Source: Undibacterium paludis
Lineage (GTDB): Bacteria > Pseudomonadota > Gammaproteobacteria > Burkholderiales > Burkholderiaceae_D
Length of the DNA stretch: 64,000 bases
NCBI RefSeq assembly: GCF_022568815.1
Contig: NZ_JAKZHX010000008.1
Coordinates: 248,001-312,000 of the forward strand
Direction: 5' to 3'
The position numbers and the translations under genes are program-made. Below the pieces are notes generated by a model. It was not told the origin of the DNA and searched no databases. It saw nothing but the letters and a program-made list of their open reading frames with translations. Shown here one piece after another: positions 25,856-35,466 of the stretch; position 1 is the first letter of the stretch; every line of letters starts with the position of its first letter.

Positions 25856-27007
25856 ATGAGCAACAACAGAATGATAGACAACAAGACCATCGCCATCATC
25901 GGCGGTGGCCCTGGCGGCCTGACGCTGGCCCGCCTTTTACAAATCCAGGGCGCCAGCGTCAGGGTGTATGAACGTGACGCCAGCCGGGACGTGCGGGTGC
26001 AGGGCGCAACCCTGGACCTGCATGCAGAATCCGGTCTCAGGGCCTTGCAGGCTGCCGGCCTGATCGCTGACTTCAGGGTCAGCTACCGCCCTGATGCCGG
26101 GCGTTTTCGCCTGATGGACAAGCATGCCCGCATCATTGCCGACCAGCATGCACAGACGGACTACAGCGAAGACAGGCCAGAGATAGACCGTGGCCCCTTG
26201 CGCGACATACTGCTCAATTCACTGGAAGCCGGCACGGTGGTCTGGAACAGCCAGTTCAAGGCCATGCAGCCAAAGGGGGCAGGCTGGCAGATCGGTTTTT
26301 ACAATGGTGATACGGTTTATGCCGATATCGTCATCGGGGCAGACGGCGCCAATTCCCGGGTGCGGCCCTACCTGACCACCATCAAACCGGTCTTTGCCGG
26401 CCTGACGGCTATTGAAGGCGCAGTCTGCGACGCACAAGAAAATGCACCTGGCCTGCACGCTCTGTTAAAAGCTGGCAAAATATTTGCCTTTGGCGATGAC
26501 AAGAGCCTGATACTCAGCGCCAAAGGGGATGGCAGCATCAGCTTTTACGCTGGCTTCAGGTCGGGCGAAAACTGGCAGCAGCAATGCGGTATCGACTTTG
26601 CCGATGTACGGCAAGTGCAGGACTGGTTCATGACGGACTTCCCCGGCTGGCACACTGTCTGGCATGAACTGGTGACGCAAGCCAGTTACCCGCTGATCGT
26701 CAGGCCGCAATACAGCATGCCGACCGGTTTGCCCTGGCCCAGCCAGCCCAACCTGAGCCTGCTGGGTGATGCCGCCCACCTGATGCCGCCTTATGCCGGA
26801 GAAGGCGTCAACATGGCCATGCAAGATGCGCTGGAACTAAGTATTTGTTTGGGTGGTCTACAATATCCTGACGCCACAACCGTCATCGCAGGATATGAGC
26901 AGGCCATGCGAGCCAGGGCGACGATCGCCGCAGACATGACACATGAGTCCATGGCGGCCCTGCATTCGGCAGAAGCGATCAGCTACATGTCCAGGCTGGT
27001 GGCCTGA
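25856..27007 (+). CDS. FAD-dependent monooxygenase (TetX/aromatic hydroxylase-like)
   Basis: The protein has 383 residues: an N-terminal Rossmann motif IIGGGPGGLTLAR, a mid-chain IGADGANSRVRPY, and the GDAAHLMPPYAGEGVNMAMQDA block that binds FAD in group A flavoprotein monooxygenases. Overall it resembles TetX-like enzymes that hydroxylate aromatic or polyketide substrates. The start at 25856 (MSNNRMID) has ACGGAGCAAGA upstream and is better than 25814. It is adjacent to an AraC regulator and an MFS transporter gene, a pattern seen for drug or xenobiotic detoxification. Confidence 0.88.
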   Translation: MSNNRMIDNKTIAIIGGGPGGLTLARLLQIQGASVRVYERDASRDVRVQGATLDLHAESGLRALQAAGLIADFRVSYRPDAGRFRLMDKHARIIADQHAQTDYSEDRPEIDRGPLRDILLNSLEAGTVVWNSQFKAMQPKGAGWQIGFYNGDTVYADIVIGADGANSRVRPYLTTIKPVFAGLTAIEGAVCDAQENAPGLHALLKAGKIFAFGDDKSLILSAKGDGSISFYAGFRSGENWQQQCGIDFADVRQVQDWFMTDFPGWHTVWHELVTQASYPLIVRPQYSMPTGLPWPSQPNLSLLGDAAHLMPPYAGEGVNMAMQDALELSICLGGLQYPDATTVIAGYEQAMRARATIAADMTHESMAALHSAEAISYMSRLVA

Positions 27008-28986: not shown

Positions 28987-29568
28987 ATGAAACCTTATTT
29001 TGTGACAATTCCGGCAACTGTGACCTTAATCCTTGCTGCCTTCATGGGAAGCGCGTCCGATAACCTGCCCGCAGGCTGGGAACTTACCGGCGATTCACCG
29101 GCGCTATATGTGGCGGGAATCGATGACAAGGTTGATGGCGGCACCGGTGACAGCAAGTTTCTCAAATTTACCGAAGGGAACAAAGTCTCCTGGGCGATAC
29201 TGAAGCAGAGTATTTCGGCAAAACAGTATCTGGGACAGCGCGTGCGCTTTCAGGCCAGGATGAAGACCAGGGGTGTTGATGAGTACTGGGCCGGGATTTA
29301 TTTTCAGGTCAAGAAGGACAATGGCCGGAACGCCTTGTTCTATAACAGCTGGGATGCCCCTATGAAAGGAGACAACGACTGGCAGGTCAGGAATGTGGTG
29401 TTTGATATTCCTGACGATGCCGGTACGATTTCCTATGGTTTCATGGACGGAGGGCAGGGTCAGGTCTGGGCAGACAGCATGAAGTTCGAAATTGTCAGCA
29501 AGGACGTGCCTGTATCCAGGGTACAGAAGGTACCCGGACCTCTGAAAAAAACACCAAATCTGTTATAA
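28987..29568 (+). CDS. Exported beta-sandwich (carbohydrate-binding-like) protein, paralog 1
   Basis: This 193-residue protein has an N-terminal signal segment (PYFVTIPATVTLILAAFMGSA) and one all-beta domain of the CBM/galactose-binding type: GWELTGDSPALYVAGID, QYLGQRVRFQARMKT, YWAGIYFQV, DNDWQVRNVVFDIPDDAGTISYGFMDGGQGQVWADSMKFEIV. A tandem paralog follows directly. Both precede, and the second overlaps, a LytS-type kinase gene, so they may be extracytoplasmic ligand-binding partners of that kinase. This role is inference. Confidence 0.75.
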   Translation: MKPYFVTIPATVTLILAAFMGSASDNLPAGWELTGDSPALYVAGIDDKVDGGTGDSKFLKFTEGNKVSWAILKQSISAKQYLGQRVRFQARMKTRGVDEYWAGIYFQVKKDNGRNALFYNSWDAPMKGDNDWQVRNVVFDIPDDAGTISYGFMDGGQGQVWADSMKFEIVSKDVPVSRVQKVPGPLKKTPNLL

Positions 29569-29593
29569 GCACCATGCAGAAAGATAAAAGAAA

Positions 29594-30181
29594 ATGAAAC
29601 CTTTCATGGCATCGATTGCTGCAACAATCGCCCTGGTGCTCACAGCGGTGGCTGGCAAAATTCCTGAAAAACTGTCATCAGACTGGCGCGTTACTGGCGA
29701 TTCTCCAAAATCTTATGAGGCTGGCATTGATTCACAGGTAAAGGGTGTGCATAGGAATGCCAAGTTCCTGCGTTTTGTTGAGGGGAACGGCACGTCCTGG
29801 GCGGCACTGACTCAGAATATCTCTGCCGAAAATTATCTGGGCCGCAGAGTGCGCTTCCAGGCCAGGCTTAAGACCAGGAATGTCGATCAAAACTGGGCCG
29901 GTATATGGTTTCGTGTCGCCGGTGAGGACGGGACTTCAAGAATTTTGTATAACTGCAGTGATGTGCCCCTGACAGGTGACAACGACTGGCAGGCAAGAGA
30001 GGCTGTTTTTGATATACCTGAAGATGCAATCATGATTTCGTTCGGGTTGCTGGTCGGCGGCAAGGGGCAGGTCTGGGCAGACGATATGAAGTTTGACATC
30101 GTAGGCAATGAAGTCCCGGTATCGCAGCAATACCGGGACAGGCCGACAGAGAATAAAACATTGGAAAAACCCCACCTATGA
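29594..30181 (+). CDS. Exported beta-sandwich protein, paralog 2
   Basis: A 195-residue tandem duplicate of the previous gene, clearly related along the whole length (TGDSP.SYEAGIDSQV, YLGRRVRFQARLKTR, DQNWAGIWFRV, GDNDWQAREAVFDIPEDA, GKGQVWADDMKFDIV). It has its own signal segment (FMASIAATIALVLTAVAG). Its stop overlaps the kinase ATG by four bases (ATGA), tying its expression to the two-component system. Divergence between paralogs is spread over the domain, suggesting they bind different things or form a heteromer. Confidence 0.75.
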   Translation: MKPFMASIAATIALVLTAVAGKIPEKLSSDWRVTGDSPKSYEAGIDSQVKGVHRNAKFLRFVEGNGTSWAALTQNISAENYLGRRVRFQARLKTRNVDQNWAGIWFRVAGEDGTSRILYNCSDVPLTGDNDWQAREAVFDIPEDAIMISFGLLVGGKGQVWADDMKFDIVGNEVPVSQQYRDRPTENKTLEKPHL

Positions 30182-32520: not shown

Positions 32521-32574
32521 ATGAACACGCCATTGGCTCTTGCCAGCTACACAGCCCGCGGGGAGCAAGCATGA
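32521..32574 (+). CDS. Short 17-codon leader ORF coupled to the ferritin-like gene
   Basis: ATG at 32521 is preceded by CAGGAGAGACGTAA, one of the best ribosome sites in the region. The frame encodes MNTPLALASYTARGEQA and stops in an ATGA overlap with the ATG of the ferritin-like gene at 32571. It contains no obvious regulatory codon run. It may be a translational-coupling leader, or the remnant of a longer N-terminus. Translation is plausible but unproven. Confidence 0.5.
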   Translation: MNTPLALASYTARGEQA

Positions 32575-33578
32575 TACGATTACACCTATCCCCCATCACC
32601 AGCGTTGCCGATGCACAGGCGATGTTGCAGACCGCCATCAATGTTGAATTTGGCACGCTGCCACCTTATCTGTATGCACAACTGACGCTGCTGCCGGACA
32701 GTAATGCAGCAGCCAAGGCGCGCCTGCAGACGATTACCCATCAGGAGATGATCCATCTGTGCCTGGGTGCAAACATCCTCAATGCCCTCGGTGGCAGTCC
32801 CAAGCTGGTGCCGCCGGTTTATCCCGGCCCCTTGCCTGGTGATATCGGCTTTGATGGCAAGGTGTTGACCTTGCACCTGCTGCCGTTTGGCAAGCCAGCG
32901 ATGAAGCAGGGCATGGATATAGAAATGCCTGAGGACCCGATAGATTTTCCGCAGCTCAAACTGGCGGCGGCGCCTTTGGCTCAGCCTGTCACCATAGGCC
33001 AGTTTTATGAGGCGCTCGACGCCTATCTCAAGACCCTGCCTGCCACAGCCTGGCAGGGGGGCCGTCACCAGATTGTCGACAAGCAGTTCTTTCCCGGCCA
33101 GCTGTTTGCCATCAACAATTATGATGATGCGCACAAGGCCATACAGATCATTGTCTCTGAAGGTGAGGGGGCGAGTACCAGCCCGCTGGACTTCAGCAAT
33201 GAACTGGCGCACTTCTACCGTTTTGAAGAAATGTACCGCAACCAGGTACTGACCAGCAGCGATTCCAAACAGGGTTTTTCCTGGGGTGGGCCGTTGGGCG
33301 TCGATTACACTAAAGTCTATCCGGCCATTGCCGACCCGCAGTTGCTTGATTATTCCAAACAGCCCGATGCCGCCAGACTGGCGCAGCAGGCCTGCACCAC
33401 TGCCTACACGGCCATGGTCGACAGCCTCAATCTGGCGCTCAATGGTGAGATCACCCAGTTGGGCATTGCCGTGCGCAAGATGTTTGATTTGCGTATGGCG
33501 GCAATTCACGCCCTGCAGACGCCGCTGGCAGACAAGAACACCGTCGCCGGCCCGGCCTTCATCTACAAAAAAGCCTGA
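32571..33578 (+). CDS. Ferritin-like (VioB/RebD C-terminal-type) iminophenyl-pyruvate dimer synthase homolog
   Basis: The protein has 335 residues. Helical motifs match the ferritin-like domain of VioB: E26 in INVEFGTLPPYLYAQL, ITHQEMIHLCLGANILNALGG (E59, H62), the SEGEGASTSPLDF loop, and LAHFYRFEEMY (H214, E219/E220). These would supply a metal site. In VioB/RebD this domain oxidatively couples two imino acids from tryptophan. Here it is a separate protein without the VioB N-terminal half, which is encoded by the next gene. The start at 32571 has GGGAG upstream. Substrate unknown. Confidence 0.82.
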   Translation: MIRLHLSPITSVADAQAMLQTAINVEFGTLPPYLYAQLTLLPDSNAAAKARLQTITHQEMIHLCLGANILNALGGSPKLVPPVYPGPLPGDIGFDGKVLTLHLLPFGKPAMKQGMDIEMPEDPIDFPQLKLAAAPLAQPVTIGQFYEALDAYLKTLPATAWQGGRHQIVDKQFFPGQLFAINNYDDAHKAIQIIVSEGEGASTSPLDFSNELAHFYRFEEMYRNQVLTSSDSKQGFSWGGPLGVDYTKVYPAIADPQLLDYSKQPDAARLAQQACTTAYTAMVDSLNLALNGEITQLGIAVRKMFDLRMAAIHALQTPLADKNTVAGPAFIYKKA

Positions 33579-33615
33579 GTGCATCTCAAATAAACCTGAA
33601 TCGGGAGAGAACAGC

Positions 33616-35466
33616 ATGAGTATCCTGCAAACGCCGCGCATCCATTTCAAGGGGCAGATATCCTGGGACCCCATCGTTACCAATAATTACCAGAGTTTTT
33701 ATAACGAAAACGCTTCGCAATCTGTCATCACGCCAGCAGAAAGCATGAACCAGTTCCGCCAGGCCGCCATCGAATCGGCCAAAGCGGGTAACTGGAATCC
33801 GCATGGCACCCACAGATCACAATTCTTTGAAACTGCCGTGTCGGCAGTCGACTTGGGAAAGGGCCTGGTCACCACGGACAAACTCTGCGGTGCACCCGCC
33901 ACATTGAACGCCATGCTGGTTGACCTGGAACCGTATGGGGTGTGCAGTTCGCAACTCTATTTTGACAGACTCAACTTTGGCATTGATGGCGGCTGCCGCA
34001 TTGTCGCTTCGCGCAATGAACGTTTCACGGCGCGCTACATCAACTTTGCCCGTAATCCTGGCCGTTTCAGTGCTGGTGTTGCGTCGGTCAACTGGCAAAC
34101 TACCTTTGCCAAGGATCACCTGATCATCGACGCCCACAAAAGCGAAGCGCTGGTTGCGCTGCAACACGCCTTGAGCGAGCCCGACGCCCTGGGCCTGGTA
34201 GTCAGCTTCAATGCCTACCGCACCGTGTATTTTGATGATGCCAGCTTGATCAAGGGTGACCCGGTGCCTGTCCAGGTGCAAAAAGGCATTCTGTACCGCA
34301 AGCTGCTTGCTGGAGGCTTTCAGCCCAATCCGGCACGTAGCCTGATTGTTGGCACCATTGGTATCTGGCGACAGGGTGAACCCAGACACGAGCCTGGTGA
34401 CCGCGCCCTGCTGCCTGACGCTAACGCCAAGGTATTTGTCGGCACCGCCCATGCCCGCATCGACAGGAAACATGTCACGCTGGACTTGTCCAACAGCATC
34501 AGCGAAACCGGGGCCGACCTGCAAAAACAGGATCTGGGCACCCTGCAAGTGTATGCTGTGGACAAGGCCAAAAAAGAAGAGCAACTGCTGGGCAGTTTCG
34601 ATTATGCCAAATATGATCGCGCTGCCTACGAGGCCAGTGCCGGTATCGTCAGCTTCCCCATCAGCGATATCCACACGACGTATGCCGAAAAAACCGACTG
34701 GGAACTGCGCAGTTCCACCCAGGGCATACTGCTGTCAGAATCGGCCTTGCGCATCATCCCCGCTTCTCCCAATCTCTATCTTGACGAGGGGCAAACCGGC
34801 GCCAGCAAGTTCCAGGTCTACAAACATGGCAAACCCCTGCATCAGGTCAGTGATGTCAGCTTTGTCCAGACATCGGCGGATGGTTCAGACATCACCACCA
34901 CCCTGCAACTGAAAACCAATGCCGAAGGCCAGGTCACCATCAACCCTTCCACCACCACGGGGAAAGTGTTTGCCTATGTGCCGTTTGCAGGCAAGGACCT
35001 GCCTGCGCCCGACCAATGGCAAGGTATTATTAATAATACCCAGACCTACACTTATGCCTATGTGCGCGTGCTCGGAGCCGACAGCGATATCGCCGCGCTC
35101 TCGCCTACCTGGACCAATGTGTACAACAACGTGCTCATCAACTGGAACGCCATGGCCCCCTGCATGGACAACTGGCTGGACCTGGCCAACCCGGTCGACG
35201 TGCATGCCTATGACAAGATAATCCGCCGCCTGACCGACCCTGCCGCCTTTGAAAGCTACATGTACATGCCCGTCACCCGCGACCTGACGGCAGGCCAGCG
35301 CACGCTGCTGTACAAGTTCCTCAACAGTACGCCAGCACATCTGGCAGAAGCAGGCGAGGCCGCAGCCCCGGTACTGGCGGCAGCGGTGCAATCTGAGGAT
35401 GAGAAAGCCGTCCCGGCCGATTTTGCCAAAATCAGCCGTTCACTGCGCAACCCGGACAGTCATTAA
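33616..35466 (+). CDS. Large protein resembling the N-terminal half of VioB/RebD
   Basis: This 616-residue protein begins SILQTPRIHFKGQISWDP, very like the SILDFPRIHFRG start of VioB. It shares further landmarks from memory: a GLVTTDKLCGAPATLNAML-type block, PARSLIVGTIGIWRQGE and a C-terminal YMPVTRDLTAGQRTLLYKFL that matches the YYMPSTRELS segment before VioB's ferritin domain. No signal peptide. GGGAGAGAACAGC precedes the ATG, 37 bases after the ferritin-like gene. Together the two genes equal one VioB-like protein, split and in reverse order. The precise role of this half is unknown. Confidence 0.75.
   Translation: MSILQTPRIHFKGQISWDPIVTNNYQSFYNENASQSVITPAESMNQFRQAAIESAKAGNWNPHGTHRSQFFETAVSAVDLGKGLVTTDKLCGAPATLNAMLVDLEPYGVCSSQLYFDRLNFGIDGGCRIVASRNERFTARYINFARNPGRFSAGVASVNWQTTFAKDHLIIDAHKSEALVALQHALSEPDALGLVVSFNAYRTVYFDDASLIKGDPVPVQVQKGILYRKLLAGGFQPNPARSLIVGTIGIWRQGEPRHEPGDRALLPDANAKVFVGTAHARIDRKHVTLDLSNSISETGADLQKQDLGTLQVYAVDKAKKEEQLLGSFDYAKYDRAAYEASAGIVSFPISDIHTTYAEKTDWELRSSTQGILLSESALRIIPASPNLYLDEGQTGASKFQVYKHGKPLHQVSDVSFVQTSADGSDITTTLQLKTNAEGQVTINPSTTTGKVFAYVPFAGKDLPAPDQWQGIINNTQTYTYAYVRVLGADSDIAALSPTWTNVYNNVLINWNAMAPCMDNWLDLANPVDVHAYDKIIRRLTDPAAFESYMYMPVTRDLTAGQRTLLYKFLNSTPAHLAEAGEAAAPVLAAAVQSEDEKAVPADFAKISRSLRNPDSH

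Follow-up and report, generated by a model that had tools for sequence, protein, structure and literature searches.

The window analysed here is a stretch of 64,000 nucleotides of Undibacterium paludis (contig NZ_JAKZHX010000008.1, positions 248,001 to 312,000 of the forward strand), which belongs to a 6.5 Mb draft assembly of 76 contigs. Near its middle lie two adjacent genes, gene A and gene B, which are related to the violacein enzyme VioB (Table 1). A sequence-only reading made earlier had placed the pair at 32571..35466, exactly where it is found, and had proposed that it represents VioB divided into two separate proteins in reversed order, outside any violacein cluster. The published passages drawn on here describe VioB as dimerising the indole-pyruvate imine made by VioA (PMC9705886), and RebD homologues as dimerising indole-3-pyruvate imine (PMC3158105). 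L, H and G numbers denote the loci, records and genomes of our survey.

Table 1. Features of the gene pair and its surroundings (positions in the window).
Feature	Position	Strand	Basis
Gene A, stand-alone ferritin-like (PF12902) half, 335 aa, corresponding to the VioB C-terminal half	32571..33578	+	PF12902; profile comparison; model resembling PDB 3hl1
Gene B, VioB N-terminal half as its own protein, 616 aa, predicted strand-rich domains and C-terminal helices	33616..35466	+	TIGR04492; profile comparison; model
Gap of 37 bases from A stop to B start	33579..33615	+	
A Glu26 codon, putative metal ligand, helix 1	32646..32648	+	identical in 44/44 ferritin-like halves
A Glu59-Met-Ile-His62 codons (ExxH), putative metal ligands	32745..32756	+	Glu and His identical in 44/44
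A Glu118 codon, putative metal ligand	32922..32924	+	identical in 44/44
A Glu199 codon (EGEG motif), putative metal ligand	33165..33167	+	identical in 44/44
A His214 codon, putative metal ligand	33210..33212	+	identical in 44/44
B motif APCMDNW (514-520)	35155..35175	+	identical in 21/21 aligned B proteins
B motif YMPVTRDL (550-557), whose VioB counterpart sits just ahead of the ferritin-like half	35263..35286	+	
Upstream mini open reading frame, 17 codons and stop, overlapping the A start by ATGA	32521..32574	+	read by eye

Gene A lies far above the curated cut-off of PF12902 (167.8 versus 22.3 bits, E = 4.4e-49) and covers the full profile (1-221). When profiles were compared with hhalign, using a VioB profile of nine proteins that all come from one bacterial family, gene A corresponded to VioB 604-834 (E = 2.8e-12) and gene B to VioB 81-589 (E = 6.9e-24); the 616-residue protein is not placed in an unrelated family. 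A tblastn search of the window with one true VioB aligned its residues 610-833 to A (3e-10) and 1-582 to B (9e-10), and gave no third VioB-like place at E < 1. Gene B also matches the NCBIfam VioB model TIGR04492 at 3.2e-11, far under the cut-off of that model. Because no Pfam family matches B above its cut-off, its link to VioB rests on TIGR04492, hhalign and BLAST. The E-values reject a chance similarity of A and B to VioB. Since the two genes match complementary, non-overlapping parts of VioB, they are taken as its halves with the order exchanged, and the sequence comparisons confirm the proposed correspondence, ferritin-like half first.

The landmarks of the VioB ferritin domain that had been named for the first gene are all present in A, including EMIH (residues 59-62), EGEG (197-200) and HFYRFEEM (214-221, fitting HFxRxxEM). 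Protein B starts with PRIHFKG (7-13), as had been described; the accompanying statement that it ends with YMPxTRxL was loose, this motif lying about 60 residues ahead of the C-terminal end. The pair and VioB have in common both halves, the same ferritin-like ligand-type residues, a similar MSxLxxPR start and the MPxTRxL junction segment. They differ in that the pair consists of two proteins with the ferritin-like one first, is 21-26% identical to VioB, and has no VioA, VioD or VioE nearby. Six residues of A (E26, E59, H62, E118, E199, and H214) are identical throughout 44 aligned ferritin-like halves, four of which are from VioB; their role as ligands is putative, and we take them to resemble a carboxylate-histidine di-iron site. 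Many further columns are invariant in the alignments of 21 A and 21 B proteins.

The model of A alone (predicted local distance difference test score, pLDDT, 86) most closely resembles, among solved folds, PDB 3hl1, the Caulobacter ferritin-like protein CC_0557 (template modelling score, TM, 0.65/0.74; 20-22% identity), which was solved as a single protein. The model of B alone is moderate (pLDDT 73), strand-rich and then helical. No solved relative of B was found by sequence profile in the PDB at E 0.1, and a fold search of the PDB with the B model yielded, among the 50 of 1975 matches listed, mostly multi-domain beta-sandwich proteins with TM <= 0.16 over the query; because these resemblances are weak, B is assigned to no fold family. 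A passage of a 2021 review describes the VioB structure as missing (PMC9705886). Against the PDB, the nine-protein VioB profile gave only two weak matches to leukemia inhibitory factor. Outside the tail 578-616, which was excluded from the test, invariant residues are commoner in the low-confidence parts of the B model than elsewhere (28/94 versus 78/483, p = 0.003). This suggests that these parts of the model are surfaces needing a partner that was absent from it, alternatives such as a shallow alignment being conceivable, and residues 514-519, which fall in a low-confidence part, would be a candidate contact with A.

A scan of a genome collection revealed 32 loci with relatives of B, a lower bound because the scan patterns came from one protein. 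In 29 of them A is the next gene upstream of B on the same strand, and the neighbourhood on which the sequence-only reading had made its case depend is conserved. Two of the three exceptions (L027, L031) open within B, at a contig end or close to one, and the third (L026) has about 8 kb of upstream sequence with no A and no run of N, its B match lacking the first 133 residues. The hosts include alpha-, beta- and gammaproteobacteria, Acidobacteria, a planctomycete, Verrucomicrobia and a metagenome-assembled genome (MAG) of Acidimicrobiales. With the B start set at the aligned Met, 19 of 30 pairs (the window and 29 relatives) have A stop and B start codons that overlap, 14 of them by 4 bases and 5 by 1 base; in the remaining 11, between 1 and 37 bases separate the two genes.

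Matches to a B profile are rare, occurring in 4/398 genomes of the phylum (U. paludis included) and 6/43 of the genus. Among 13 window genes tested, A and B alone recur at the same place in three related Undibacterium loci (L005, L006, L007), and the MFS (major facilitator superfamily) transporter gene of the window is weakly and partially matched at another place in L005. Since the 11 neighbours lack same-place counterparts in these three loci, the pair itself is regarded as the unit. A local operon with the upstream LytS/LytTR-like pair or the downstream cupin-, LysR- and MFS-type genes was rejected, this arrangement not being kept in the three relatives. A phage origin was likewise rejected, B having no match in 50,697 phage records.

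Phylogenetic trees were built from 44 ferritin-like halves and 42 N-terminal halves, with the window and 18 of the 29 other pairs as ferritin-first rows; six further loci came from a PF12902 survey, which had a match in 18 of 399 genomes of the order. The 19 ferritin-first pairs form one group in both trees (support 99 and 100), the trees being of a quick type with the Shimodaira-Hasegawa-like approximate likelihood ratio test (SH-aLRT) as the sole support and with long branches flagged by the tool. The group still holds (100) when three RebD-like proteins are added, which entered the N-half tree alone. The distances among A and among B proteins correlate (Mantel r = 0.81, 0 of 2000 permutations as high). 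This is as expected for a unit inherited together, and shared host descent contributes to the correlation too.

One alternative is that the pair is a broken VioB, i.e., a formerly fused gene that was split, rearranged and is now decaying. It is true that VioB and RebD-like proteins are single chains, in 21/21 matches above the TIGR04492 cut-off and in 3/3 actinobacterial RebD-like genes. However, the halves are adjacent in 29/32 loci across phyla (one of them, L028, with a B frame enlarged to 873 aa), many columns are invariant, and the pairs form one group in the trees. A decayed VioB is made very unlikely by this conservation, and we give it hardly any weight.

In VioB and RebD a single polypeptide carries the N-terminal half followed by the ferritin-like half, whereas here two genes stand in the reverse order. 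The RebD/StaD-type chromopyrrolic acid synthases have the same two-part content as the pair. Our three stand-ins for them are fused genes on plasmids of Pseudonocardia, Nocardiopsis and S. clavuligerus, to which the RebD label was given in this analysis; they lie directly behind a gene for an FAD (flavin adenine dinucleotide)-dependent oxidoreductase, near P450, monooxygenase or glycosyltransferase genes, and the N-half tree places them apart from the ferritin-first group. U. paludis itself encodes a fused VioB-like protein of 892 aa (L094, 9825-12503) inside an ebo-type gene cluster. The existence of fused relatives, VioB and this protein, is a natural sign that the halves work together.

The neighbours of this fused gene include EboE and 3-dehydroquinate synthase according to curated models, a UbiA-type gene, and EboA-, TatD- and phosphatase-like genes. 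EboE scores 443 bits against a cut-off of 250, and the 3-dehydroquinate synthase in the EboD position passes its cut-off too; the UbiA-type gene falls under that of EboC (117 versus 250 bits). The labels EboA, EboB and ebo phosphatase were assigned by likeness and position, and the same set is annotated in records of Mycetohabitans and Aureibacter. Beside this cluster (L094, 225-2599), a gene that looks by eye like a radical S-adenosylmethionine enzyme stands between two similar small proteins, possibly a peptide-modification locus.

Beyond what the sequence-only reading had covered, namely the ferritin-first pair, our analysis found this fused relative, the context of ebo genes and a protein family C described below, and a second kind of split in which the N half comes first. 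Such two-gene VioB-like units, with the opposite gene order to that of the window, occur at 12 loci: L041, L126, L128, L129 (two pairs) and eight plasmid records (H6-H13), the latter being 8 of 171 records with one place covering at least 80% of the fused query. In L128 the two frames overlap, and the order therefore rests on their ends. These pairs are annotated as 'hypothetical protein' and 'ferritin-like protein', and their hosts are Azospirillum, Mycetohabitans, Gloeothece, Aureibacter and genomes with Lysobacter-type pairs. Because they are found in several phyla, a split VioB is not unique to the ferritin-first order; neither tree places these pairs in the ferritin-first group. There are ebo genes next to the pair at 6 of the 12 loci (L041, Gloeothece, Aureibacter and three of Mycetohabitans), and a protein family that we call C lies beside or within about 3 kb of 7. 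On a Mycetohabitans megaplasmid (L134, 5498-8559), an annotated LodA/GoxA oxidase and a tryptophan 7-halogenase stand a few kb from the split pair and ebo cluster.

In the passages cited, the ebo cluster is given the task of moving precursors to the periplasm during the synthesis of scytonemin, and P. fluorescens is described as having a full ebo cluster within its EDB cluster (PMC6282210). A review describes how the EDB cluster converts tryptophan from outside into indoles repellent to C. elegans (PMC9655573), and two older papers call its product or mechanism unknown (PMC5736907, PMC4406715). Protein C is about 320 aa long (for example L013, 5680-6804); it matched no Pfam family (two copies searched), no NCBIfam family (one copy) and no PDB relative by profile, and several copies begin like a signal peptide or lipoprotein, as judged by eye.

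At the ferritin-first loci, C adjoins the pair in 13/32, ebo genes in 6/32 (L011, L012, L014, L016, L030, L034) and a TonB-dependent receptor in 6/32 (L010, L017, L024, L025, L031, L035); in some loci C adjoins the receptor. Genome-wide, C is present in 18 of 32 pair-bearing genomes (31 relatives and U. paludis, with L034 left out as coming from the same genome as L030), EboE in 12 and either of them in 27. The C profile was built from 12 copies beside the pair in 11 of the 18 positive genomes, and the other seven are new finds. In a sample of the phylum, EboE occurs in 3/349 genomes (U. paludis included) and C in 2/349, the latter figure being independent of the copies in the profile; this background is a rough yardstick because the pair-bearing genomes span several phyla. 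Both C-positive genomes of the sample have a VioB-like gene adjoining C (L125, L126). Most ebo loci were reached through VioB-like queries, and the unbiased ones are the three EboE-positive genomes of the sample, of which two (U. paludis, G805) carry VioB-like genes within the cluster, unlike the third (G859). Within Undibacterium, EboE is found in 7 of 43 genomes and B in 6, all six of the latter also carrying EboE (p = 1.1e-6, ignoring relatedness). Locus L125, from the same class as the host of the window, combines ebo and VioB-like genes; its aruC matches a P. aeruginosa record at 72%, which hints at a Pseudomonas as its host. A second probably secreted protein, of about 430 aa, stands beside extra B-like genes in ebo clusters (L014, 5128-6447; L016, 5328-6599; L125, 8453-9745), and its L014 copy has no Pfam match.

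The association with C raises the possibility that the pair is a post-translational modification system oxidising a partner protein such as C, comparable to the suggested maturation of LodA-like by LodB-like proteins. The frequency of C beside the pair and its enrichment over the phylum sample would fit this, and PF12902 genes are described near lodA-like genes in fungi (PMC4417212) and stand beside a GoxA-like gene in U. paludis. However, C is absent from U. paludis by profile search and from the other three Undibacterium genomes examined, in which the pair persists; in several genomes it lies away from the ferritin-first pair (L128-L131), and no maturation of C is known. We therefore consider this explanation improbable.

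The surroundings of the pair in the window are not those of a violacein cluster. In the window, searches with VioA, VioD, VioE and three RebO-like oxidases gave no match at E < 0.05, and those with VioA and the RebO-like oxidases none at E < 0.5 either. The earlier claim that the window holds no VioA, C, D or E homolog stands for VioA, VioD and VioE and is qualified for VioC, which weakly matches one gene resembling an FAD monooxygenase (25856-27007, 22.5% identity, E = 2.5e-6). In the whole U. paludis genome, which has eight amine-oxidase-family matches, the only VioA match is partial (residues 3-85, E = 2.6e-7) and covers an N-terminal stretch of 83 residues in another amine-oxidase-type gene. 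No ebo-type genes were found in the window or in the 17.8 kb examined for each of L005, L006 and L007; in the draft assembly, the EboE gene of U. paludis lies on contig C1 and the window on C75. The pair is linked to ebo/EDB clusters by co-occurrence in genomes, and in the window it stands outside such a cluster.

This setting bears on another explanation, namely that A and B form a binary system with a different job, for instance A as a ferritin-like protein for iron storage or peroxide detoxification and B as its structural partner, neither of them serving biosynthesis. In favour of this, nothing in the neighbourhood of the window pair is obviously biosynthetic, VioB is reported with catalase activity (PMC9705886), and there are PF12902 proteins that have no N half with them and stand beside a propeller-like or GoxA/LodA-like gene. 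Against this, B matches the greater part of the N half of VioB, down to the segment that joins it to the ferritin half, and both types of split recur in ebo clusters, which are treated as metabolite clusters in the passages cited (PMC6282210, PMC5133447). A purely non-biosynthetic system is unlikely, if less so than a protein-modifying one.

Taken together, A and B are on balance probably a two-subunit oxidase of the VioB/RebD type that acts in an export-linked pathway other than violacein synthesis. The sequence-only reading, which had pictured one enzyme formed by two proteins and acting on another substrate, is in part supported, in its account of the halves, their conservation as neighbours and the missing violacein cluster. 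In the mechanism we propose, A would provide a ferritin-like fold with the E, ExxH, E, E, H set, probably holding a non-haem iron centre, and B would supply the other half, the corresponding C-terminal helices of VioB continuing directly into its ferritin-like half. As neighbours encoded in a fixed order, the subunits would assemble into the equivalent of the single-chain VioB, and a physical complex of A and B is very probable. By analogy with VioB and RebD, the complex may use O2 or H2O2 to oxidise, and perhaps couple, a metabolite of the alpha-keto- or imino-acid type. Oxidase activity is likely, a coupling reaction is possible, and a substrate derived from an aromatic amino acid is somewhat more tentative still. 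In the relatives, the product would enter an export-linked pathway, involving ebo genes or the often secreted-looking C together with a TonB-dependent receptor. The frequent presence of an ebo cluster or C in the hosts points to an uncharacterised oxidative natural-product pathway.

Several observations weigh against this assignment. Identity to VioB is low, and with 22.6 bits for A and 41.8 for B the pair does not reach the TIGR04492 equivalog cut-off of 1250 bits. Because VioB was reported with haem b (PMC9705886), the cofactor of A and B could be another than a non-haem iron centre. The co-inheritance of the two genes partly reflects the common descent of their host species. Five of the 32 pair-bearing genomes, all MAGs, have neither EboE nor C, and the window pair stands without ebo genes, C or an amino-acid oxidase. 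Locus L125 holds ebo genes along with C and two B-like genes, and nothing A-like was found in 20 kb there, the remainder of the genome not having been searched with PF12902; the N half may therefore work without an adjacent ferritin half. Finally, L127 has ebo genes and no match to A, B or C in 20 kb.

A wider picture, which we regard as rather unlikely, gives VioB-type enzymes, in many cases divided into two subunits of either order, a general role as biosynthetic partners of ebo export clusters and of C, making a widespread family of tryptophan- or aromatic-derived metabolites finished in the periplasm, perhaps grazing deterrents like the EDB indoles. The ferritin-first pair would then be a mobile two-gene module, and violacein and rebeccamycin a specialised fused offshoot. 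If the link between VioB-like genes, ebo and C holds, a conserved export cluster for which few products are known would gain a biosynthetic role that can be tested. A natural two-subunit VioB would offer smaller pieces to express, mix and mutate. A literature search, mostly without subscription papers, found no paper that deals with a divided VioB or that describes VioB-like genes as part of ebo clusters, and within that literature it is fair to call the two-gene ferritin-first pair undescribed, as the sequence-only reading had ventured.

Some further features were observed at the locus and elsewhere in the genome. A mini open reading frame of 17-20 codons, with its own ribosome-binding-like site and an ATGA overlap with A, was seen by eye in all four Undibacterium loci (the window, L005, L006, and L007), and may be a leader for translational coupling. 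In the window, two tandem, similar, secreted-looking proteins of 193 and 195 aa (28987-30181) lie upstream of the LytS/LytTR-like two-component pair and are not kept beside A and B in the three relatives. Elsewhere in U. paludis, a stand-alone PF12902 protein adjoins a beta-propeller-like gene that appears by eye to be of the pyrroloquinoline quinone type (L095, 6246-8975). At another place (L096, 8368-15038), a PF12902 gene is followed by a GoxA/LodA-like gene, with a weak match to the GoxA model, and farther on by an FAD gene that seems LodB-like by eye; this looks like a ferritin-like protein within a bacterial quinoprotein-type cluster.

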